From assembly GCA_902590895.1 (NCBI GenBank), contig CACIYM010000005.1, positions 1-52,618 on the forward strand: 52,618 nt of DNA, written 5' to 3'. A model generated the notes under the pieces. That model searched no databases. It was not told the origin of the DNA and was given only the letters and a program-made list of their open reading frames with translations. Source of the stretch: an uncultured Alphaproteobacteria bacterium. Lineage in GTDB: Bacteria; Pseudomonadota; Alphaproteobacteria; Methylaequorales; Methylaequoraceae. Positions 18,050 through 33,034 of the stretch are shown in pieces (position 1 is the first letter of the stretch; every line of letters begins with the position of its first letter). A program made the position numbers and the translations under genes.

Positions 18050-18137
18050 GCGGCCGTGGCGGAACTGGTAGACGCGCAACGTTGAGGTCGTTGTAGGAGT
18101 TATTCCTGTGGAAGTTCGAGTCTTCTCGGCCGCACCA
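18050..18137 (+). tRNA. tRNA-Leu (anticodon GAG)
   Basis: A complete cloverleaf can be drawn: acceptor arms GCGGCCG and CGGCCGC, D-arm, anticodon stem CAACG/CGTTG around loop TTGAGGT, a long variable arm typical of class II tRNA-Leu, the T-arm with GTTCGAGTC, and an encoded CCA. It follows pccA by eight bases with no visible promoter of its own, so it may be processed from the pccA transcript. Confidence 0.95.
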
Positions 18138-18184: not shown

Positions 18185-19423
18185 GTGAAATACATTTATA
18201 AACATGGGAATCAATTTTGGTATCAGAGAGCAGTTCCGTTAAAAATACAAAAAATAATTGGAAAGACTAATATTAAGGTTTGTTTGAAAACCAATAAAAT
18301 TTCCACTGCTGTTCAAAGATCGAAGTTGCAAGCCCTTGAACACAAAAAGTTGTTTCAATATGTAATTAAACAAAACTATTTGTCCAAGGTCTTCTATAAA
18401 AAAGCTATTAATATAAAAAAATATCAATTAACATTTTTTGACGACTATGAGGATTATGTAACAAATATTTTTTTTTCAAAAACGAAGATTTATGAGAATA
18501 TAAAAAATAGGATCAACTTAAACATTAATTCAAGTCAAAAAAAGAAAAATAATAAAACAATTGAGAGTTTTCTTTTCAATATTCAAAGTAAATATTCATT
18601 ATTTTCAGTTATTTTAAAAAACATTTCTCAAGATAAAAAAAAACTTGGTTCGTTAGTTGAGAAAAAAAATTTAAAATTGTTCGTTGATATTTGTGGTGAT
18701 AAACCTGTATACGAATACAACTCAGACGATTACGATAAGTTTCAACTTTTTTTATTCAAAAATAACCTTAATGCTAAACTTATTTTGAAAGCTGTAGTTG
18801 ATGTTATTATCATAGGTTATGCAAACCTAAATATTAAAGAAAAAATAAATTTTAAAAAAAAAATAAAAATTCGAAACACTGGTTCTACTATAGAATTTAA
18901 TGATGATGAGTTATCTTTAATAGAGAGTAAATGTAAAGAATCTTTAGATCTTGAGTCCTTAGTAATTTTATTATTGATGGATACTGGTTGCACTATTAAA
19001 GAAGTTGTTGGGATTACTGCTGATGACATTTATTTAGATAGCTATTTACCTTTTGTAATCATTAGGTCAAATAGATTTAGAAAAATCCATAACGTAAATA
19101 AATTAAGAACGGTCCCTTTAGTAGGGTTGGCTTTATGGGCCTTGGAAAAAATAAAAAGTAATGCAAAATATAATGATTTTTTTACATCTAAAAAAAAGAA
19201 AACTCTTTTAATTAACAAATTAAATTTTAAATTTAAAAAGATTATTTCCAATAAAAATCTGACATCTTTTAGAAAATCATTTATAAAAAGATTAATCAGT
19301 ATAAATTGTCCTGAAAGAGTTATATTAGATATAATCGGACAATCAAAGAAAAATAGATTCTACAGTGATGAAATTAGTCTCGAAATCAAAGCGAGTTGGT
19401 TAAAACAGATTACTAAATATTGA
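18185..19423 (+). CDS. Tyrosine recombinase / phage-type integrase, catalytic residues degenerate
   Basis: The N terminus (MKYIYKHGNQFWYQRAVP) resembles the arm-binding start of phage-type integrases of alphaproteobacteria, and the C-terminal half follows the tyrosine recombinase layout. Key positions look altered. The TGxRxxE motif reads TGCTIKEV (Arg replaced). The HxxR motif reads TSFR (His replaced, Arg kept). The LGH motif reads IIGQ. A candidate Tyr is in RFYSDEIS. Start is GTG. It lies 47 bases after tRNA-Leu, the classic place for an integrase, but no tRNA-Leu repeat is visible in the window. It may be a dead or repurposed recombinase. Confidence 0.7.
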   Translation: MKYIYKHGNQFWYQRAVPLKIQKIIGKTNIKVCLKTNKISTAVQRSKLQALEHKKLFQYVIKQNYLSKVFYKKAINIKKYQLTFFDDYEDYVTNIFFSKTKIYENIKNRINLNINSSQKKKNNKTIESFLFNIQSKYSLFSVILKNISQDKKKLGSLVEKKNLKLFVDICGDKPVYEYNSDDYDKFQLFLFKNNLNAKLILKAVVDVIIIGYANLNIKEKINFKKKIKIRNTGSTIEFNDDELSLIESKCKESLDLESLVILLLMDTGCTIKEVVGITADDIYLDSYLPFVIIRSNRFRKIHNVNKLRTVPLVGLALWALEKIKSNAKYNDFFTSKKKKTLLINKLNFKFKKIISNKNLTSFRKSFIKRLISINCPERVILDIIGQSKKNRFYSDEISLEIKASWLKQITKY

Positions 19424-24234: not shown

Positions 24235-24312
24235 GGTGGCTGTAGCTCAGTTGGTTAGAGCGTCGGTTTGTGGTACCGAAGGCCGGGGGTTCAAATCCCC
24301 TCAGCCACCCCA
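24235..24312 (+). tRNA. tRNA-His (anticodon GTG), integration target
   Basis: Full cloverleaf: acceptor arms GTGGCTG and CAGCCAC, an extra encoded G at position -1 opposite C73, anticodon stem TCGGT/ACCGA around loop TTGTGGT, T-arm GGGGGTTCAAATCCCC, and encoded CCA. The 3' 51 bases of this gene (from the anticodon stem through CCA plus one base) recur at 27364, and the 3' 48 bases at 28546, so it is the attachment site of the two elements that follow. Confidence 0.97.
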
Positions 24313-24313
24313 T
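24263..24313 (+). repeat. Attachment-site copy 1 (inside the intact tRNA-His)
   Basis: Direct repeat beginning TCGGTTTGTGGTACCGAAGG in the anticodon stem and ending at the base after CCA. It is identical over 51 bases to 27364-27414 and over its last 48 bases to 28546-28593. This is the full-length, tRNA-proximal copy (attL-like). Confidence 0.95.
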
Positions 24314-24672
24314 TTTATTTCTTGTAATCTTACAACTTTTTGTTTTCGTCTTCTTACAGTTCTTTTTTCTTTATTTCTAATAAAACCTATTTCCTGATTG
24401 ATTATATCAAGAGCTAAGTTGTCATATCCATAAGAATAACCATAAAGCAGATTAATAATCATATTAGAAACTGAATTAAATTCTTCTTCATTTAATTTTT
24501 TGGCTAGTATTTTAATACAATATTCAAAGTCTTGATCTATACGACCATCTAAAATCTTATATTTCTTATTAATTAAAATTTTAGGTTTTTTTGATGGCGG
24601 TTTTTTGAATTTATTAAAAAGTAAGCCAAGAATAGAGAATATTTTATTTTTAATTTTTGATACAAAAAACAT
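24301..24672 (-). CDS. Small unknown protein, paralogue of the 84-residue gene in the same element
   Basis: 123 residues: a Lys-rich N-terminal region with a hydrophobic patch (FSILGLLFNKF), then a helical domain with IKILAKKLNEEEF and LLYGYSYGYDN, and a basic tail. The middle domain aligns with the other small gene at 25417-25671 (shared pattern K-I-x-A-K-x-L-x(3)-E-F ... G-x(3)-G-Y-D). The stop codon and last two Gly codons are supplied by the antisense strand of the tRNA-His 3' end, so the gene's end was set by integration. Function unknown. Confidence 0.7.
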   Translation of the reverse strand: MFFVSKIKNKIFSILGLLFNKFKKPPSKKPKILINKKYKILDGRIDQDFEYCIKILAKKLNEEEFNSVSNMIINLLYGYSYGYDNLALDIINQEIGFIRNKEKRTVRRRKQKVVRLQEIKWGG

Positions 24673-24679
24673 AAAAATA

Positions 24680-25327
24680 TTAATTATCTAAGCTGGAATA
24701 AACTTGATTTAAGTTTTCCCAGTCTAAAAAATTATTTGAGCCACCATATAAGATAGAGTCAAGACTATCTGATCTATCATTGTGTATTTTAAATATTTTC
24801 CTAACACCATCAATTAAGAATCTAGTTATTTTTTTATTTTCTTTTTCTAAAACAACATTATTTTCAACTTGATGATTAATAAGATATAATATTACTCCGA
24901 TATATTTGAATGCATTATATAAATTAATCTCAAAGAAAAATTTCTTAAGATCAGTTTTCAAAACCTGATTTTGTAACAAAATAGCTTCATTTTTCGAAAT
25001 TAATTTATCTCGACCAAGATAACAGATTTTATCATCCGTTATAAATTGACTGTTGAAATGTAATTTTTCTTCTATAAGTTTCTTATAAATCAATACAAAA
25101 AACGCATTTGTAAGACCCTCACAGCAACAAGTTCCATGACATAAATGATTGCGCCAGTTATTAATATCTGCAATTTTGCAAACTTCAAAAAATGACAAGT
25201 TTTTTATCATGTAAGGTGTGGCAATATAATACATTATATTATTAAGATTAGAATTTTGAGTAATTTCAAAACCTTGAGATTGTAATAATAATTTTTTTAC
25301 TTCTTGTAATTTGTTAGATTCGACCAT
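24680..25327 (-). CDS. Unknown 215-residue protein with Cys-rich motif
   Basis: Not recognised. Mostly helical with a distinctive motif NHLCHGTCCCEGLTN at about residues 60-74, four Cys and two His close together, suggesting a metal site or disulfide cluster. The rest has hydrophobic helical segments but no clear membrane helix or signal. Its stop is eight bases from the start of the next gene, so the two are probably co-transcribed. Confidence 0.65.
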   Translation of the reverse strand: MVESNKLQEVKKLLLQSQGFEITQNSNLNNIMYYIATPYMIKNLSFFEVCKIADINNWRNHLCHGTCCCEGLTNAFFVLIYKKLIEEKLHFNSQFITDDKICYLGRDKLISKNEAILLQNQVLKTDLKKFFFEINLYNAFKYIGVILYLINHQVENNVVLEKENKKITRFLIDGVRKIFKIHNDRSDSLDSILYGGSNNFLDWENLNQVYSSLDN

Positions 25328-25416
25328 TAAAATAATAACTCCAAAGCTTTAACTATACCTAGTAAAATTAAAACGTTTTTTAAAACCCAACACATTACTT
25401 AAAATCAAACAAATTA

Positions 25417-25671
25417 TTACTTTTTAATCAGACTAAATATCTTTTTATTATTCTTAATTAGATTTTGTCGTTCTTCTTTAGATTCATCTTTTGCTACTGT
25501 GTAGGCCTTACGAGCATCTGCTAATATTCCATTAATATCACCCTCATCGTAACCAACATCACATCCCATATAGAGTTTATAAATAAAATCTTCAACTTCC
25601 TTAAACTCTTTATGAGATAAGTGCTTTGCAATGATCTTAAGTTTTCCAAATGCATAATCATTTATAGCCAT
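25417..25671 (-). CDS. Small unknown protein (84 aa), paralogue of the 123-residue gene
   Basis: Helical protein with LKIIAKHLSHKEF, then VEDFIYKLYMGCDVGYDEGD, then a Lys-rich tail. It matches the core of the 24301-24672 protein. The ATG has a good AAGGAT ribosome binding site. Its transcript should begin at the promoter at 25770-25797 and carry the structured leader at 25693-25764. Function unknown; the pairing of two related small proteins in one element suggests a dimer or antagonistic pair, which is inference only. Confidence 0.72.
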   Translation of the reverse strand: MAINDYAFGKLKIIAKHLSHKEFKEVEDFIYKLYMGCDVGYDEGDINGILADARKAYTVAKDESKEERQNLIKNNKKIFSLIKK

Positions 25672-25692
25672 AGTTATCCTTTTAAAAATTAA

Positions 25693-25764
25693 TAGGAAAG
25701 GGATATGTACCGAGAAAGGTCGCCTTACTGTGTTAACGTTGAAACTAATACAATCCCTTACCTA
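25693..25764 (-). ncRNA. Candidate structured 5' leader RNA or operator upstream of the 84-aa gene
   Basis: The ends of this 72-base segment pair: minus-strand TAGGTAAGGGATTGTA with TACATATCCCTTTCCTA, 15 pairs with one mismatch and one bulge. They enclose 39 bases that contain a small AAGG-CGA-CCTT hairpin and a possible GTT...AAC hairpin. The predicted transcription start for the minus-strand gene falls at the first base of the stem. A TATTAATTTTT stretch follows the 3' arm. It fits a riboswitch-like leader, attenuator or sRNA. A DNA operator is the alternative. No known RNA family recognised. Confidence 0.5.
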
Positions 25765-25769
25765 TAAAC

Positions 25770-25797
25770 ATCATAATAAAAAAAAAAATTGTGTCAA
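25770..25797 (-). promoter_or_regulatory. Sigma-70 promoter for the minus-strand genes of element A
   Basis: On the minus strand TTGACA, 16 bases (mostly a T-run), then TATGAT. The start site should lie near 25763, exactly at the edge of the structured leader. The plus-strand promoter at 25830 has the same hexamers and the same spacing. Confidence 0.72.
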
Positions 25798-25829
25798 CCA
25801 AAAATATAACATAAATAAATAATTGTATG

Positions 25830-25857
25830 TTGACATATAAATATGACAATATATGAT
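25830..25857 (+). promoter_or_regulatory. Sigma-70 promoter for the plus-strand genes of element A
   Basis: TTGACA, 16 bases, TATGAT. The expected start site near 25864 coincides with an in-frame ATG, so the message may be leaderless. Together with the opposing promoter, the two -35 boxes form an inverted TGTCAAC/GTTGACA pair about 30 bases apart. Confidence 0.7.
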
Positions 25858-25863
25858 ATATAT

Positions 25864-26304
25864 ATGAATGAAAAAAAATATGATTTTAAAATTGGAAAAA
25901 ACTTATTTGAAATTAAAAGCTTTAATCTTGAAACTGAAAAAGAAATTTTAATTTCACTTAAGAAAATAGAAAAGAATAATAGGACTAAGGAAGAAACTAA
26001 AAAAATTAAAGCAAGTAATTTTAAAGTTATTATTCATAGACGTATGCAAAAGTTGATTGACCTATTAAATGGTCTTTCAAAACTTTCTAACAAATCTCAT
26101 TACAAAGTTGATCATGAGATACTTTTGGAGTGTGAAAATAAGTTAAACGAAGAAATCAGAAAAGTTTTTTCTAAATTTAGATCTTATCAAAAAGAAAAAA
26201 AAATTAGATCTGAATCACAAACAAAAGCTTTGAGAAAGCAATTTGAAGAATTACGCTTATTGATCGATGAGCAAGAAAGCAAAATTAACAATGAAAAAAA
26301 TTGA
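25864..26304 (+). CDS. Unknown coiled-coil-like protein upstream of the HNH-HIT gene
   Basis: About 147 residues, Lys/Glu-rich, with long helical stretches; the C-terminal half (NKLNEEIRKVFSKFRSYQ onward) looks coiled-coil. No family recognised. The ORF track begins at 25843, but that ATG lies between the promoter boxes; the ATG at 25864 sits on the predicted start site. It overlaps or abuts the HNH-HIT gene, so the two are a transcriptional pair. Confidence 0.6.
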   Translation: MNEKKYDFKIGKNLFEIKSFNLETEKEILISLKKIEKNNRTKEETKKIKASNFKVIIHRRMQKLIDLLNGLSKLSNKSHYKVDHEILLECENKLNEEIRKVFSKFRSYQKEKKIRSESQTKALRKQFEELRLLIDEQESKINNEKN

Positions 26305-27352
26305 AAAGATGAAGAATCTTATAAGAAAAATTTTAAGAATAAAAAAAAATAAAAAAAGTATAAGTCCTAATATTTTTCTTAAACTACATAATTATATTTT
26401 ATCTAAGATGCAAATGTCACATATTTATCAACCTTTAATGTTAATTGAGTTGATAAAAGGAGATGGAAAAGCGAATAGAAGAGATATAGCGAAATCTATT
26501 TTAAGCTTTGACGAAGCACAAATTGATTATTACAAAAAAATTATTCAGTCAATGCCATTCAAATATTTGTCTAAACATCTAGATGAAATAAAAAAAAAAA
26601 AGGACGAGTATTACATTAAAGATTTTAATTTAAATGGAAATCAAAAAGAAGAATTGATTAGACTATGTAAAAAAAAATTAAATGAATTCATAAAAGAAAG
26701 AGGTATTAAAAATATTTTTCATCATAGAATATTAGCAACTGGTATTGTTTCCGGCAGTATGAGATATAAGGTTTTATTAAGAGCAAAAAATAGATGTGAG
26801 AGTTGTGGGATATCTAATGAAAAAAAACAATTAGAAGTAGATCATATCATTCCTAAAAGTAAAGGTGGAAAAGATGAGTTTAGTAACTTCCAGGCGTTGT
26901 GCTATACTTGTAACTCTCAAAAAAGTAATAAAGATAATACAAATTTTAAAAAAGTGCTAGAAAGTTATGAACTCAGAAAAAAAGGTTGTATTTTTTGTGA
27001 TTTATCAAAAGATAGAATAATAAATTCAAACGAGCTTGCTGTAGTTATTGAAGATAACTATCCTGTTACCAAATATCATTGTTTAATTATTCCTAAAAGA
27101 CATTGTGAGGATTACTTCGATTTATATCAACCAGAAATAAATGCTGTTTCACAATTGATTAATGAAACAAAAAAAGTCTTAATGAAAAAGGATAAATCAA
27201 TAAAAGGATTTAACATCGGAAGTAATTGTGGTGAGGTTGCAGGTCAGACTATTAATCATTGTCATATACATTTAATTCCAAGAAGAAAAGGTGACTCAAA
27301 AGCCCCGGAAGGTGGTGTGAGAGGAGTGATTCCAGATAAACAAAAATATTAA
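26291..27352 (+). CDS. HNH endonuclease fused to HIT-family nucleotide hydrolase
   Basis: Three parts are visible. An N-terminal helical, winged-helix-like region (MSHIYQPLMLIELIKGDGK) comes first. An HNH nuclease domain follows, with Cys pairs RCESCG and CYTCN around LEVDHIIPKSKGG. The C-terminal HIT domain begins with CIFCDL and ends with the histidine triad HCHIHLIPRR. HIT enzymes cleave nucleotide-phosphate bonds and HNH enzymes cut DNA or RNA. I recall the combination as an uncharacterised family in other proteobacteria. Start is uncertain (26267, 26291 or 26309). It is the last gene of element A, ending 11 bases before the second tRNA-His repeat. A defence role is inference. Confidence 0.85.
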   Translation: MKKIEKMKNLIRKILRIKKNKKSISPNIFLKLHNYILSKMQMSHIYQPLMLIELIKGDGKANRRDIAKSILSFDEAQIDYYKKIIQSMPFKYLSKHLDEIKKKKDEYYIKDFNLNGNQKEELIRLCKKKLNEFIKERGIKNIFHHRILATGIVSGSMRYKVLLRAKNRCESCGISNEKKQLEVDHIIPKSKGGKDEFSNFQALCYTCNSQKSNKDNTNFKKVLESYELRKKGCIFCDLSKDRIINSNELAVVIEDNYPVTKYHCLIIPKRHCEDYFDLYQPEINAVSQLINETKKVLMKKDKSIKGFNIGSNCGEVAGQTINHCHIHLIPRRKGDSKAPEGGVRGVIPDKQKY

Positions 27353-27363
27353 ATATTCTTGCA

Positions 27364-27414
27364 TCGGTTTGTGGTACCGAAGGCCGGGGGTTCAAATCCC
27401 CTCAGCCACCCCAT
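27364..27414 (+). repeat. Attachment-site copy 2 between elements A and B
   Basis: 51 bases identical to the 3' part of tRNA-His, from TCGG of the anticodon stem through CCAT. The preceding GCA differs from the tRNA GCG at one base, so identity ends there. It lacks the tRNA 5' half and cannot encode a tRNA. Confidence 0.95.
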
Positions 27415-27459
27415 ATAAAAAAGTTTAACTCAAAAAAATTTTATGATATTAATTACATT

Positions 27460-27924
27460 ATGTTAAATATTTTTTTAGCGATTGTATCATTAATTTTTTT
27501 TACGACAAGTTGCCAAACAATGAGAGGAGACAAACCTCTTGCAGAAAAAGTAATTAAGTCTGATCCAAGCACAAATTTAACTTTGGGTTTGGTTCAGATG
27601 ACCGTAAGAGAAGGTGCAAGTAAAAATGATATTATTTCATCACTGGGTTCACCTAATATGGTAACAAGTTCAGGTTCTAAAAATGAAACCTGGATTTATG
27701 ATAGAGTCTCTACTGACATTCAAAGAGAAAATGAGTCTGGTTCAGCAGGCTTGGAGGTTGGTTTTGGAGGTTCAGGTGATGTGGTGGGAGGTAATATAGG
27801 GGCTGGAGCCTCGTCTAAATCTTCTGGAGAAGTAGTTGTTCGAACACAAAGGACTTTAACAGTAATAATAAAATTTGTTGATGGAATAGTTTCCTCTTAT
27901 CAGACTAGAGCCACAAGTTTTTAA
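27460..27924 (+). CDS. BamE/SmpA-like lipoprotein with glycine-rich insert
   Basis: Lipoprotein signal with SLIFFTTSCQ, Cys at residue 18. The MTVREGASKNDIISSLGSP segment and NETWIYDR resemble the BamE/OmlA fold, where a helix precedes the G-x-P turn and a W-x-Y strand. Between them and the last strands lies a Gly/Ser-rich stretch (GLEVGFGGSGDVVGGNIG). Likely anchored in the outer membrane facing the periplasm. The stop overlaps the next start. Resemblance is by pattern only. Confidence 0.7.
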   Translation: MLNIFLAIVSLIFFTTSCQTMRGDKPLAEKVIKSDPSTNLTLGLVQMTVREGASKNDIISSLGSPNMVTSSGSKNETWIYDRVSTDIQRENESGSAGLEVGFGGSGDVVGGNIGAGASSKSSGEVVVRTQRTLTVIIKFVDGIVSSYQTRATSF

Positions 27925-28523
27925 TGTTTTTTTTTTTTCTTATTATATTTACTTTGTTTTTTATTGATTTGGGGAATACACAAGTTATAAACCAATCAAA
28001 TCAACAAAGTACAAAAGTTGAACAAAAGGTTCCAAAAAAAACTTCAGTAGAGATACAAGCAATTCAAACTCGTACATTTGAAACAACAGAGAAGAAATTA
28101 TTTAGAGCAACTCTTAAAGTACTTCAAAACAATAGTTACAAAGATATTATTTCCGATTTTAATGGAGGACTTATAACAGCAAAGTTACCATCTGTTGATG
28201 CTAGTGACTCAGCCGGAACACAAGTTGGCAAGGCTCTTGGTGGATTAATTGTTGGTGCAGTAATTCCTTTTGGAGGGTTATTAGTACCTGGCAAAAAAGT
28301 TGGTCAATTAGATAGAAGTGTGAATATTACTCTTGATCCAATCAAAGATAATTTAATTGAGATAAGAGTTGCATTCCAAATCACTGAAATGACAACCCAG
28401 AGCAATTCTTTTGTATCAACCAACGAAACAATTGAAGATGACCTTACAGATCAACCAGAAATTTACCAAGCATTTTTTGAACAAATTGATAAAGAACTTT
28501 TTGTAAGGGAGAATAAGTATTAG
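27924..28523 (+). CDS. Exported protein of unknown function, paired with the BamE-like lipoprotein
   Basis: 199 residues with an N-terminal hydrophobic segment (FFFFLIIFTLFFIDLGNT) acting as a signal peptide or anchor. It continues with a basic Gln-rich linker, a domain with RTFETTEKKLFRATLKVLQ, a hydrophobic Gly-rich hairpin (ALGGLIVGAVIPFGGLLVPG), and beta-rich remainder. The start overlaps the lipoprotein stop by one base, so the pair probably works together in the envelope. Not assigned to a family. Confidence 0.68.
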   Translation: MFFFFLIIFTLFFIDLGNTQVINQSNQQSTKVEQKVPKKTSVEIQAIQTRTFETTEKKLFRATLKVLQNNSYKDIISDFNGGLITAKLPSVDASDSAGTQVGKALGGLIVGAVIPFGGLLVPGKKVGQLDRSVNITLDPIKDNLIEIRVAFQITEMTTQSNSFVSTNETIEDDLTDQPEIYQAFFEQIDKELFVRENKY

Positions 28524-28545
28524 GTAAGATAATCTTATAAAGTAA

Positions 28546-28593
28546 GTTTGTGGTACCGAAGGCCGGGGGTTCAAATCCCCTCAGCCACCCCAT
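28546..28593 (+). repeat. Attachment-site copy 3 (distal end of element B)
   Basis: 48 bases identical to the tRNA-His 3' end, starting GTTTGTGGTACCGAAGG inside the anticodon loop region and ending CCAT. The upstream AGTAA differs from the tRNA. Three bases shorter than copy 2, placing the crossover at or downstream of the anticodon. Confidence 0.95.
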
Positions 28594-28596
28594 AAT

Positions 28597-29451
28597 TTAA
28601 ATTTCAAAAAAAGTGTAATCACTTTCTCGATTAGCCAATTCATTTAGATTCTTATCAAAGAGATAGAAATTTTCATGAAGATTAATATACAAACCTATAC
28701 CTTTTTTATTATAGTTTTTTGGAGGGTTGAATATTAGTCCAACTTTTTCATTTCCATTTTCATCTAAAGAAAAGTCATCAATATGAACTTTGAAAACTTT
28801 ACAATTATTTAAATATAGACTTGATGGTCTTACTTCAAAACCTGCTGTCAGTTCAATAGGTGAACGTTCTCGGTGTTTATCAGTCCATTTATATCCTGTA
28901 TCATTTCTTTCCCTTATTAAAAAGTTTTTTGATTTTTTTACTATAAAGGAATTTTCAATCCCACCAAGTGACATCATCTTTCCTTTTTTACAATCAAAGC
29001 CAGCATAAATTAAAAGTTGAAGAAAAACTGGAAGAATAGTGGTTGAAATATGTCCCTCCAAAAATCTCTCAGCTGGATGTTTAGGGCCTGAAATAACTAA
29101 ATCTCCATCCTCATTTAGTAAGTCATAAATTTTATCTAGAAAAAAACCTTGATTTCTCTGATGCTCTATTACGTGCGAACAATAAATCATATCATACTGT
29201 GTTTTAAAGTTATATTTATTGAAATCACCGATAAACTCAGCTTTCTTTTCATATTTGTCAATTGAATCAACTAAAAGACCAAAACTTCTCATTATTTTGC
29301 AATGTGCACCTAAAGCACCACCAATATCCAAAACTTTAAATCCTTTTTTAAATTTATTTTTAGATAGTAAGTATTCTATTAATGAGAATCCTCCATAATC
29401 TAATTTAGGTATCTGATCTAACATATAAATATTGAGCAATTTAAATGCCAA
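28597..29451 (-). CDS. SAM-dependent methyltransferase (class I)
   Basis: 284 residues. The Rossmann-type core shows FKVLDIGGALGAHC (SAM-binding motif I), then VDSIDKYEKK, then YDMIYCSHVIEHQRNQGFFL and LNEDGDLVISGPKH (motif post-I to III). The C-terminal 110 residues are variable and may bind substrate. Its stop is three bases from the third att repeat, so it lies just outside the elements or at an older insert edge. Substrate unknown. Confidence 0.8.
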   Translation of the reverse strand: MAFKLLNIYMLDQIPKLDYGGFSLIEYLLSKNKFKKGFKVLDIGGALGAHCKIMRSFGLLVDSIDKYEKKAEFIGDFNKYNFKTQYDMIYCSHVIEHQRNQGFFLDKIYDLLNEDGDLVISGPKHPAERFLEGHISTTILPVFLQLLIYAGFDCKKGKMMSLGGIENSFIVKKSKNFLIRERNDTGYKWTDKHRERSPIELTAGFEVRPSSLYLNNCKVFKVHIDDFSLDENGNEKVGLIFNPPKNYNKKGIGLYINLHENFYLFDKNLNELANRESDYTFFEI

Positions 29452-29574
29452 ATTTTTTAATCAGAAAAATTAATTTATAAATTCAAAAAAATATTTCTAA
29501 AGGTTGGTATTTCATAATTTGGGAGCAATTAAATATGTATGTTTAAAAACATTTTCAGTGATTTTACACGGTGA

Positions 29575-29772
29575 TTAGTATCCATATCCCATTAAGAATT
29601 TTAATCTTTCTGCCTCATCTGCAAGTTTGGTCAATGATCTGGCTGCATCTGAGTTACTCAATGAAATATTATCTTCTTTTGAAACATTTCCGAGGAATGT
29701 AATTAATTCTGGAAGCATTGTTATAGCTCTTTGGTTCTTATTTGCGTCTTTATATTTAGGATCAATTTTCAT
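29575..29772 (-). CDS. Small unknown protein (65 aa)
   Basis: A short helical protein (LPELITFLGNVSKEDNISLS, then AARSLTKLADEAERLKFLMG). No signal or membrane segment. No family recognised. It ends with aromatic residues MGYGY. Not an obvious shadow of another gene, and isolated in a 460-base gap between larger genes. Confidence 0.5.
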   Translation of the reverse strand: MKIDPKYKDANKNQRAITMLPELITFLGNVSKEDNISLSNSDAARSLTKLADEAERLKFLMGYGY

Positions 29773-29913
29773 AAATTCATATTATCATAATATGCTTTAA
29801 ATCTAAAAATTTTTGTTTTGTGAAATTTTTATTTCTTGAACAGATTGTAGGAGATTAAATCCACCAAACAAACTCGATAAAATTTAAAAGTATTTAAATT
29901 TTGATGTTATGAT

Positions 29914-30810
29914 TTATAAGGAGACCCATCTTCTGATATTTTGATTTGCGGGAAAGATATCGGGGTGTATAATCTCCGCTAATATTCTTGTGCTTTCAAG
30001 AATATCAGGACCTGGTCTATTAAAGTATTTATTACCATCAACTAGAAATTTTTTTTTATCTTTTAAAACATTAAAATAATCAATATTTGATTTAAATATT
30101 TCTTTTTTTGATCTATTAATATCGAAGCCACAAGGCATAAAAATTACAATATCAACTTCTTGGAAGTTTATATCTTCGAGTTTTATAAAATTAGAATTTT
30201 TTCCAGACTTGGCCAAAACACTTTTACCTCCAGCAAATTTTACGAGTTGAGGAATCCAATTTCCCGCAGTCATTATTGGTTCAATCCATTCAATGCAAAG
30301 AACATTTTTAATTTTAGAGTTTAAAGTTTTTGCCTTAATTTTATTTATTTCTTTTTTAATGTTTTTAACTAAAAAATTTGATTCCTCTTCTTTATCTAAT
30401 TTTTTACCAACTAGCTTTATATCCTTGAGTACATCTTCAAATGTATTGGGTTTTAAATCAATTAGAACAGGCTTTTTATCTATAAAATCTCCTAAACACT
30501 TCTCTACATCTTTTAAAGAAACCGCACAAACTGAGCATTGTGATTGTGTTATTATTACATCTGGATCTAATTTTTTGAGCAAATTAGATTTTACTTCGTA
30601 TACAGACAAACTTTGTTCTAAAATTTCTCTGATATCATAATCGATTTTTAATGAAACTTGTTTCGTTTTTATTCTGCTAGTTGTAAGTTTTGGAAGTTTT
30701 AAAGCTTTTTTTGGATAATCACATTCGTGAGAAACTCCAACTAAATTATCGTATAAATTTAATGCAGAAATAATTTCTGTAGCGCTTGGTATGAGACTTA
30801 CAATTTTCAC
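29914..30810 (-). CDS. BtuF-like cobalamin/metal-chelate binding protein, cytoplasmic form
   Basis: Periplasmic-binding-protein type fold: MKIVSLIPSATEIISALNLYDNLVGVSHECDYP at the start, LLKKLDPDVIITQSQCSVCAVS in the middle and KKKFLVDGNKYFNRPGPDILE near the end, typical of the class III binding-protein (BtuF) superfamily. It lacks a signal peptide, as in a subset of proteobacterial homologues annotated as cobalamin-binding. No ABC permease or ATPase is adjacent. Role in the cell is uncertain. Confidence 0.78.
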   Translation of the reverse strand: MKIVSLIPSATEIISALNLYDNLVGVSHECDYPKKALKLPKLTTSRIKTKQVSLKIDYDIREILEQSLSVYEVKSNLLKKLDPDVIITQSQCSVCAVSLKDVEKCLGDFIDKKPVLIDLKPNTFEDVLKDIKLVGKKLDKEEESNFLVKNIKKEINKIKAKTLNSKIKNVLCIEWIEPIMTAGNWIPQLVKFAGGKSVLAKSGKNSNFIKLEDINFQEVDIVIFMPCGFDINRSKKEIFKSNIDYFNVLKDKKKFLVDGNKYFNRPGPDILESTRILAEIIHPDIFPANQNIRRWVSL

Positions 30811-30852
30811 AGTAATTTTTTATGATTTAAAATCTAAACAATTTATAATTTT

Positions 30853-31434
30853 TTATACACCCGTTCCTTCAAAACACTTTCCTTCAAAATAAAAAATCTC
30901 CCATGGTTCTAAAGAAAAACTTTTAATGGTCTTTAGGGATAATTTTCCTTTTTTGTTAAACAACGGACGGTCGGTAGAAGCATTTTCTTGTAGTTTTCTT
31001 AAATTAAAAAAAAAATCAGGATCGTCAAATCTGTAGATTGTTCTTTGTGTTTTTCCGGTAACTCTATCAATATCGTATGAATCTAAAAAATACGCCTGCG
31101 AAACAAATGTATTGATGGTGATTTTATTTTCTGTCATCAAAAAATCATCAAGAAGTATTCCTTGATGATCAAACCAAGAGTTTCTTAAACGATATTCAGT
31201 TTCGCCATTGTTATTATCATGCATATTAACCTCAACTATGTCATTGCAACCAAAAGATTTGCAAATTATAGAACTATTTATTTTTTGATCATCATTTGTG
31301 CTTGGGACATTAGACTCTTTTTTTATTAATTTGGGATCATATTCACAGGATAACTTTAATATGTTAGAAGTTTTACCATCTACATTAAAAGACCATAAGA
31401 GCAGAAGTATAAAGTAAAACTTTTTGAACGGCAT
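30853..31434 (-). CDS. Exported protein of unknown function
   Basis: 193 residues with a signal peptide (FYFILLLLWSFNVDGKTSN, cleavage probably after DGK). The mature part is beta-rich with four to five Cys (LSCEYDP, SIICKSFGCNDIV, GKCFEGTGV) that could form disulfides. No family recognised. It follows the BtuF-like gene's start region and reads in the same direction. Confidence 0.65.
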   Translation of the reverse strand: MPFKKFYFILLLLWSFNVDGKTSNILKLSCEYDPKLIKKESNVPSTNDDQKINSSIICKSFGCNDIVEVNMHDNNNGETEYRLRNSWFDHQGILLDDFLMTENKITINTFVSQAYFLDSYDIDRVTGKTQRTIYRFDDPDFFFNLRKLQENASTDRPLFNKKGKLSLKTIKSFSLEPWEIFYFEGKCFEGTGV

Positions 31435-31568
31435 GTAATTTATCTAATCGATTTTATTTAACTTACAAATAAAAAATTTAGTTTTTAATAGAAAAAAATG
31501 AAGAAGCATAAGTTAAATAAATAATCTTTTTTTTTTTATTTTTTTATACATAATGTATATTTAGAAAT

Positions 31569-31643
31569 ATGCACAAATTTTTTAACTACTTGTTATGTAT
31601 AATGGTTACTATGTAAGTTGTAAGTTGTAATACTACAAAACAA
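31569..31643 (+). pseudogene. Broken lipoprotein signal sequence of the downstream protease
   Basis: In frame with the protease ORF, an ATG at 31569 opens MHKFFNYLLCIMVTM, then a TAA stop at 31614-31616, then VVSCNTTKQ joins directly to the protease start. Replacing the TAA by TTA (one base) would give a textbook lipoprotein signal ending LVVSC. It therefore looks like a recent nonsense mutation, a sequencing error, or a read-through site. A 7-base tandem repeat (TAAGTTG) overlaps the stop. Confidence 0.6.
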
Positions 31644-32891
31644 ATGGTTATACCAGAATTGAATCAAACTGAGGGATTTAAGAATATTCCTGAATCAAAA
31701 AGATCTTCAACTTTTGCTTTAGCTAAACTAATAAACGACATTCCTAGAGGAGAACCACTTTTTGCATTTCCTCCAAAGGTTGAAACTGATGGCTGGTATT
31801 GTAATTATTCATATAGCGGTGATAACACCGTTACATCAGAGGGTAGTAGACAATACCTTGGAGATTGGTCAAGTGAAATTGGTGTTGGTTTTTATGAAAC
31901 TCTTTCAAAGAAGGGTTATTCAGTGGTTGGGGATCCCAGTGATTTATTTAATCAAAAAAAATTTGCAAATTCCGCAGAATTTTTGATAGGTGGTAGGATT
32001 GTGAAAATGAGCGGAAATTTCTGTGAGGAACACCATTGGTGGGATGGACGCCCTTTAAACAGGTTCAGTGGAGAAATTTATACTGAGATCGAATGGTCAG
32101 TGCTTAATTCTTTAACTAAAAATATCGTAATTAAAAAAACAGTTCAAGGTTATTATAAACAAAAAAAGCCTGTTAAAGATGGGGTAATACTTACATTCAA
32201 GAATGCAATTCTAAATTCTGCCGATAATTTTGCATCAGCAAAAAATCTTAGAAAAATTGCTTTAGGAGAAAAAATAGACAATCTCCAGTCGGTAAAAAAT
32301 ACTAACAAAAATTTTATTGAAAATGGAAATTCATCTAGGTTTAATTTTGATAATCTAAAATCTAAAATTGTTACGATTAGAGTTGGAACAGGCCATGGAT
32401 CTGGTTTTTTTATAGGTTCAAAAGGACTTATTTTGACAAATGCTCATGTGATTGGTTCTGCAAAAAAAGTACAGATTATTTCTAACTCTGGTATTGAATT
32501 CCAAGCGGAAACTTTTTTTATTAATGAGACAAGAGATATAGCTTTATTGAAATCTAACGTTAATTTTTCTGATCCTATCGATATTAGTTTAGAAAAGCCT
32601 AAAGTTACCACAGACGTTTATGCGGTTGGGACGCCAATTTCTGAAAGTTTAAAAACAACAGTCACAAAGGGAATAATTAGCGCGATAAGAACTGATAAGA
32701 CCAGTGAGCTAGAATTTATTCAAGCTGATGTTTCAATTTCACCAGGAAACAGTGGTGGTCCTTTATTTAATGCAAAAGGAGAAGTTATTGGTATTTCCGC
32801 AGCTAAATATTTAGGAGATGGTGTTGAAGGCTTAGGGCTATTTATACCAATAAAAGAAGCATTGGAGATTTTAAATATTGAAATACTTTAG
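31644..32891 (+). CDS. Trypsin-like serine protease, probable ancestral lipoprotein
   Basis: N-terminal 220 residues form an unrecognised beta-rich domain with Trp-rich WYCNYSYSGDN. The C-terminal half is a DegP-like trypsin fold: GHGSGFFIGSKGLILTNAHV (His), NETRDIALLKS (Asp), SISPGNSGGPLFN (Ser). No PDZ domain follows. As written the ORF starts at MVIPELNQ without any export signal, but a lipoprotein signal lies immediately upstream across one in-frame stop, so the intact gene was probably 31569-32891. Without the signal it would be cytoplasmic and likely non-functional. Confidence 0.82.
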   Translation: MVIPELNQTEGFKNIPESKRSSTFALAKLINDIPRGEPLFAFPPKVETDGWYCNYSYSGDNTVTSEGSRQYLGDWSSEIGVGFYETLSKKGYSVVGDPSDLFNQKKFANSAEFLIGGRIVKMSGNFCEEHHWWDGRPLNRFSGEIYTEIEWSVLNSLTKNIVIKKTVQGYYKQKKPVKDGVILTFKNAILNSADNFASAKNLRKIALGEKIDNLQSVKNTNKNFIENGNSSRFNFDNLKSKIVTIRVGTGHGSGFFIGSKGLILTNAHVIGSAKKVQIISNSGIEFQAETFFINETRDIALLKSNVNFSDPIDISLEKPKVTTDVYAVGTPISESLKTTVTKGIISAIRTDKTSELEFIQADVSISPGNSGGPLFNAKGEVIGISAAKYLGDGVEGLGLFIPIKEALEILNIEIL

Positions 32892-33034
32892 TATTTTTTG
32901 ATTTATCTATAACCATTTTGGATAATTTTGAGCCATAGGCAAAAAAAGTTTCAACAGTTAAATAATGGAGAATCAATATAGGTGATTAATTATTAAAATA
33001 TGGTTTTTTTTCTAGAAATTATTATGTGTTATCA

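Follow-up and report, generated by a model that had tools for sequence, protein, structure and literature searches.

Additive flexible genomic islands with repeats of a tRNA fragment are described in the excerpted text of papers on Alteromonas (PMC4119200), 'Ca. Actinomarinales' (PMC7771536), and 'Ca. Methylopumilus' (PMC10872708), and how recombinase-less tRNA islands move is an open question for islands of this kind. In Dehalococcoides, 16 of the islands at ssrA carry a serine-recombinase module, and some islands that have no integration module were proposed to be mobilizable in cis (PMC3146451). Cis-mobilizable elements (CIMEs), in turn, are decay products of integrative and conjugative elements (ICEs) or integrative and mobilizable elements (IMEs) and are mobilized in cis with one of these (PMC5704250). 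Here we analyze a 52.6-kb stretch of DNA (52,618 nucleotides; hereafter the window) from an alphaproteobacterium of the HIMB59 order, in which the gene for tRNA-His is followed by a tandem array of short gene blocks (units) bounded by copies of its own 3' half. We consider it probable that the locus is one of a set of integron-like cassette arrays at tRNA genes and that phage-type tyrosine integrases load these arrays in trans. The HIMB59 lineage is abundant in the ocean and streamlined, yet its genes turn over, and the arrays give this turnover a precise place and unit; a paper on HIMB59 islands mentions tRNA once and integrase never (PMC10734472).

A single intact tRNA-His(GTG) is called by ARAGORN in the window, at 24236-24312, and its 3' half recurs twice on the tRNA strand, as an exact 48-bp copy at 27366-27413 (98% identity over 53 bp from 27361) and as an exact 47-bp copy at 28546-28592, with start-to-start spacings of 3101 and 1179. 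The original prediction, made from the letters of the sequence, had placed this half at the locus three times in direct orientation, with 3.1-kb and 1.2-kb recombinase-free blocks in between; the three occurrences are confirmed at the coordinates just given, and the blocks, which measure 3,053 bp and 1,132 bp, gave no integrase, transposase, or replication match when their cargo was compared with Pfam and PHROGs. When both strands of the window are scanned with a profile, the three intact half copies score 96.4 bits each, and the next-best independent site is at 29831 (-31.1 bits, 25/47 bases matching the tRNA-His half). It falls in a 49-bp gap, a place at which a copy is predicted from homology to other genomes, and, judged by its sequence, 29831-29877 is a decayed fourth attachment (att) copy. 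Both of the elements predicted earlier are thus present, but their extent had been understated, as there are at least three units here and a second array system at tRNA-Leu(CAA). An assembly artefact is ruled out by the occurrence of the same structure in many independent genomes, mostly single-cell ones. The array is laid out as follows:

24236-24312, plus strand: intact tRNA-His(GTG), the insertion platform (attB/attL), with the att core being the 3' half from about position 30 (ARAGORN, copy comparison)
24313-27365, unstranded: unit 1, 3.05 kb, five open reading frames (ORFs), GC content 24.9% versus 30.5% in the window (ORF list, composition)
27366-27413, plus strand: second tRNA-His 3'-half copy, the att site closing unit 1 (sequence match)
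27414-28545, unstranded: unit 2, 1.13 kb, two ORFs, att-to-att homologue of the unit right behind tRNA-His in genome G026 (27366-28593 aligned to locus L053, 3730-4913)
28546-28592, plus strand: third tRNA-His 3'-half copy, the att site closing unit 2 (sequence match)
28593-29830, unstranded: unit 3, with a methyltransferase ORF at 28597-29451 and a 65-aa ORF at 29575-29772 (homology to other genomes)
29831-29877, plus strand: apparent decayed fourth att copy (25/47 bases) between unit 3 and conserved backbone (best scan site after the three intact copies; position predicted by homology)
29879-31478, unstranded: conserved backbone resuming in the congener G002, where the array of recent units ends (92% identity to L031, 5620-7218)

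The window was compared with a family sample of 32 genomes, the relatives being HIMB59-type alphaproteobacteria retrieved by gene search and mostly single-cell genomes. In the congener G002, whose core genes are 92-95% identical to those of the window at the DNA level, homology runs through tRNA-His to 24320 and restarts at 29879; the 5.56 kb at 24321-29878 are absent, with 1.9 kb of other genes in their place, which rules out an old fixed duplication. The tRNA-His genes of the two genomes are identical at positions 1-43 and differ only at 44, 46, and 48, and all three window copies of the 3' half carry the window variant at these positions, which fits units that arrive with a 3' half of their own. 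Partial tRNA-His copies are lacking in G004, G011, G015, and G018, and one to four of them, with other cargo, are present in G005, G009, G010, G012, G020, G021, G024, G026, G027, G029, and G030 (strongly decayed in G030). The comparison proposed with the original prediction, a search of relatives for empty, single, and different-cargo versions of the site, thus brings such versions to light, and relatives do not all carry the same copies and the same genes between them. As a separate observation, G002 has 12 bp in place of ~1.5 kb beyond the array (31479-32987) in which a trypsin-like protease ORF lies (31644-32891), and no tRNA-half border is seen.

Counting as a unit each stretch between successive tRNA-half copies, we find 26 His-type units in 15 loci of relatives, at tRNA-His or at a relic tRNA-His (median 1.2 kb, range 0.25-6.6 kb), and every partial His match at E < 0.05 lies on the tRNA strand. 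A search with the flank of the relic tRNA-His brought up the second system, in which the intact tRNA-Leu(CAA) gene is followed by up to six or seven tandem partial copies of its 3' part; most genomes of the family have such arrays, and they are also present on contigs of the genome to which the window belongs (G000:C27, G000:C28, and G000:C16, i.e., L172-L174 of the set L165-L184). These arrays hold 50 units with a median of 1.6 kb, 70/70 Leu matches are in one orientation, and the farther a copy ranks from the tRNA, the lower its identity (rho -0.47, p 0.002). The tRNA genes screened for partial copies were those for His, Leu(CAA), and Leu(GAG); the last, which stands beside a recombinase-like gene described below, was rejected as a further array site, as no partial copies of it occur in the family.

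Units are shared and shuffled among the genomes: 31 gene families lie inside units of at least two genomes, and the same units recur in differing orders and neighborhoods. A transglutaminase-type operon, for example, forms a unit in G005, G010, and G027, is part of a unit in G012, and lies within the relic site in G026, and gene families c11, c38, and c158/c159 and a DNA methyltransferase are found in units of both the His and the Leu(CAA) systems. Units have also been transferred between genera. The single-gene unit c55 occupies different sites in G002 and G020 and is 97.6% identical between them over 845 bp, from att to att; its gene is 98.9% identical, versus 73-80% for glnA, glnB, and an aminotransferase. 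Overall, the cargo is made up of small genes for envelope or metabolic functions and of defence genes (restriction-modification, DruA-like, and possibly HNH-HIT), with C5-methyltransferase restriction-type modules in G009 and G006 and a DruA-type defence module in G024.

The crossover boundary is constant. Aligned at the tRNA half, 19 non-redundant units show no relatedness in their left flanks, which are AT-rich (~0.1-0.4 bits per base), until the anticodon loop, where conservation jumps to near-complete, and a T two bases before the boundary is kept in 16 of the 19 flanks. Further evidence comes from the relic tRNA-His, a degenerate full-length gene missed by ARAGORN and nested near tRNA-Leu(CAA) (L032, minus strand; L047; L057), which still takes up His-type units; L036 has only the relic's partial copies. 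At this site, the right-hand copy keeps the native 3' end (TCAATTAAT or a variant) in G002, G006, and G026, and the left-hand copy is a normal CCA-ending half in G002 and G026, that is, a chimera of the kind produced when a circle with a 3' half of its own inserts by crossover at the anticodon loop.

No match to PF00589 or PF00239 (tyrosine and serine recombinases) lies inside any array (76 units). Serine recombinases occur in two family genomes only, on contigs other than those with arrays, and the tyrosine recombinases recovered by the PF00589 scan, which is not specific for attC or IntI, are Xer-sized or of phage or island type; within the family, the same scan found no related integrase-bearing element at tRNA-His. 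Several HIMB59 genera also share an integrase of 389-396 aa, nearly identical among them (L106-L110, L117), whose neighbors are restriction or helicase genes; for most copies, no tRNA was called in the stretch examined.

A phage link is nevertheless found in IMG/VR, where three contigs of one phage (L136-L138) and a relative (L139) contain the tRNA-His 3' half only, followed by a tyrosine integrase ~440 bp away, at 5681-6817 in L137, together with a CI-like repressor, a single-stranded DNA-binding protein (SSB), endolysin, and tail genes. The contigs are those of temperate phages that use the tRNA-His half as their attP. Over 49 bp, the phage half and that of G010 do not differ, and the att core (≤1 mismatch) is found in 4/385 genomes of the class, all of the HIMB59 family. 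Moreover, the DruA unit of G024 (L051:2824-9411), which has no integrase, has 155 bp at 86% identity (E 3e-44) in common with the phage attP and left arm. Among named phages, none has an integrase above 60% identity to that of the phage.

The cargo of units 1 and 2 in the window comprises the following genes:

24301-24672, minus strand: unit 1 ORF, 123 aa, no known function, its 3' end overlapping the end of tRNA-His (ORF list, Pfam)
24680-25327, minus strand: unit 1 ORF, 215 aa, no known function (ORF list, Pfam, PADLOC)
25417-25671, minus strand: unit 1 ORF, 84 aa, no known function (ORF list, Pfam)
25843-26304, plus strand: unit 1 ORF, 153 aa, no known function (ORF list, Pfam, PADLOC)
26267-27352, plus strand: unit 1 HNH endonuclease-HIT domain fusion, 361 aa (Pfam HIT 2.9e-18, HNH 2.5e-15)
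27460-27924, plus strand: unit 2 ORF, 154 aa, lipoprotein-like (ORF list, Pfam)
27924-28523, plus strand: unit 2 ORF, 199 aa, no known function (ORF list, Pfam)

Four of the five ORFs of unit 1 have no homologues in other loci. The HNH-HIT fusion, with weak PADLOC matches to a ThsC-like HIT and a PtuB-like HNH domain, is possibly a defence effector, and a search for viral relatives of the gene found no close one. The two parts of unit 3 occur elsewhere as units or parts of units, 28597-29475 in G005 and 29574-29829 in G020, and the G020 unit that matches the latter stops exactly at an att site.

A unit consists of one to ~5 genes that end in the tRNA-His 3' half, from the anticodon loop to CCA. 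In the model that we favor, it would recombine as a circle, through this half, with the same sequence in tRNA-His. The tRNA would thereby be made whole again, with the resident gene supplying its 5' half and the circle its 3' half, and units that arrived earlier would be displaced from the tRNA together with their own 3' halves. The enzyme would be a tyrosine integrase acting in trans, most likely from temperate phages that have the same tRNA-His half as attP; the virus with the identical landing site is its likely source, and, in line with the original prediction that such modules move in trans, we infer that units are mobilized in trans by phage. Units may move between cells inside phages or by uptake, and RecA recombination between the 47-bp halves could add to the shuffling. 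Several results weigh against this model: no circular units were observed; neither the phage nor its integrase is present in the 32 family genomes, and a resident prophage carrying that integrase could likewise be discarded; the left arm of the phage is shared by the G024 unit only, the arms of the other units being unrelated; no phage with a tRNA-Leu(CAA) half was found in a search by exact pattern only; and in the His arrays copy identity shows no relation to distance from the tRNA (rho 0.04), where simple stacking predicts a fall.

The original prediction gave the elements no recombinase of their own, which holds inside the blocks but has to be corrected for the neighborhood, where a tyrosine-recombinase-like gene without most of its catalytic residues, INT33, lies 4.8 kb upstream of tRNA-His:

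18050-18137, plus strand: tRNA-Leu(GAG) (ARAGORN)
18185-19423, plus strand: INT33, tyrosine-recombinase-like (DUF6538 and Phage_integrase), behind tRNA-Leu(GAG) (Pfam)

INT33 could be taken for the array's own recombinase, placed as an integron integrase is beside its array. It is present in 18/32 genomes, always behind tRNA-Leu(GAG) (other copies, L062-L079), and under purifying selection (dN 0.063, dS 0.443, dN/dS ~0.14), its predicted model matches the tyrosine-recombinase fold of Xer and Tn1549 integrases at a modest predicted local distance difference test score (pLDDT 73.7), and His arrays are more frequent in genomes that have it (11/14 vs 1/6, Fisher p 0.018, uncorrected for kinship). 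We still hold such a role to be highly improbable, as ArgI, HisII, and HisIII are lost in 18/18 copies (the Tyr is kept), Leu(CAA) arrays exist in genomes with no detected INT33 (G004, G006, and G007), and a His-type unit is present in one of these, G006. Catalysis by INT33 is unlikely and an accessory role possible; the protein is possibly a domesticated dead recombinase. A wider formulation for HIMB59 as a whole, an integron-like cassette economy at two tRNA genes of bacteria without a recombinase for it, in which single-gene units retain nothing but a tRNA half, temperate-phage integrases load, excise, and exchange them, and the conserved but catalytically degenerate INT33-type protein near the array is accessory or restraining, is tentative and, taken in full, rather doubtful.

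Two further accounts dispense with an integrase acting in trans. If the halves had been left once by old integrase-bearing islands since decayed, present-day shuffling would reflect RecA recombination between the repeats (47-65 bp) and between flanking genes, and nothing site-specific would be at work today; the lack of an integrase in any unit, the strong decay of some half copies, the missing rank-identity trend in the His arrays, and the accepted role of homologous recombination in replacement islands would all fit. This is unlikely, however, given that the left flanks of unrelated units end at exactly one base, that the chimeric halves at the relic site require a crossover within the core, that c55 moved between two tRNA sites with att-to-att borders, and that a phage currently uses the identical core. 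The units might instead be the cargo left behind by prophages or satellites, each of which had entered tRNA-His by means of its own integrase before decaying as CIMEs do, without any mobilization in trans, an account in keeping with the phage-type attP arm of the G024 unit and with defence cargo typical of prophages and satellites. We judge it quite improbable, as none of the 76 units has a recognizable integrase, and near-identical one- or two-gene units recur across genera and sites, so that movement is needed after any loss of an integrase. The loading of units by phage-type integrases can be put to the test: with a candidate helper phage that has an identical att, and a unit that has this phage's attP arm, one integrase and two short DNA sites suffice for an experiment on mobilization in trans.

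In kind, the arrays belong with systems already known, namely additive flexible islands, the Dehalococcoides ssrA islands, and CIMEs. As in additive flexible islands, the cassettes sit at a conserved tRNA gene, a fragment of which is directly repeated at the end of each, and the content of the site varies between genomes, some of which have no cassettes or other ones there; the excerpted text on those islands describes no unit-level map across genera, relic-tRNA chimera, or phage attP match of the sort found in HIMB59. In the ssrA islands, too, many elements stand in tandem behind a single RNA gene and are delimited by a repeat of its 3' end, but whereas that type is defined by an integration module in a large share of its islands, 0/76 HIMB59 units have a recombinase, most units are 0.3-4 kb, and the crossover is at the anticodon loop. 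Like CIMEs, the units are flanked by att on both sides, have no recombinase or transfer genes, and are accreted at a tRNA 3' end, but no ICE or IME partner was seen (conjugation genes were not searched genome-wide). Integrons and clusters of attC sites lacking an integrase (CALINs; PMC11389934) are likewise arrays of cassettes that hold one or a few genes plus a recombination site and are shuffled in trans; in HIMB59, by contrast, a tRNA 3' half takes the place of the folded attC, and an essential tRNA gene serves as the platform. Tycheposons of Prochlorococcus and others, named as a loose parallel at the outset, share tRNA-anchored cargo and a streamlined marine host but carry a tyrosine recombinase (PMC10872708), for which no HIMB59 unit has a PF00589 match, and they are a more distant parallel than the three systems above. 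The G024 unit, with a phage-type attP, defence cargo, and no integrase, resembles phage satellites or hitcher elements, which share att specificity with a helper phage as the arrays do (a 49-bp core, and the left arm in this one unit), but no packaging or replication genes were recognized in it. New features of the HIMB59 arrays are 76 units without any recombinase, their minimal size, their exchange among genera and between platforms, the chimera at a relic site, and a phage with the same att.

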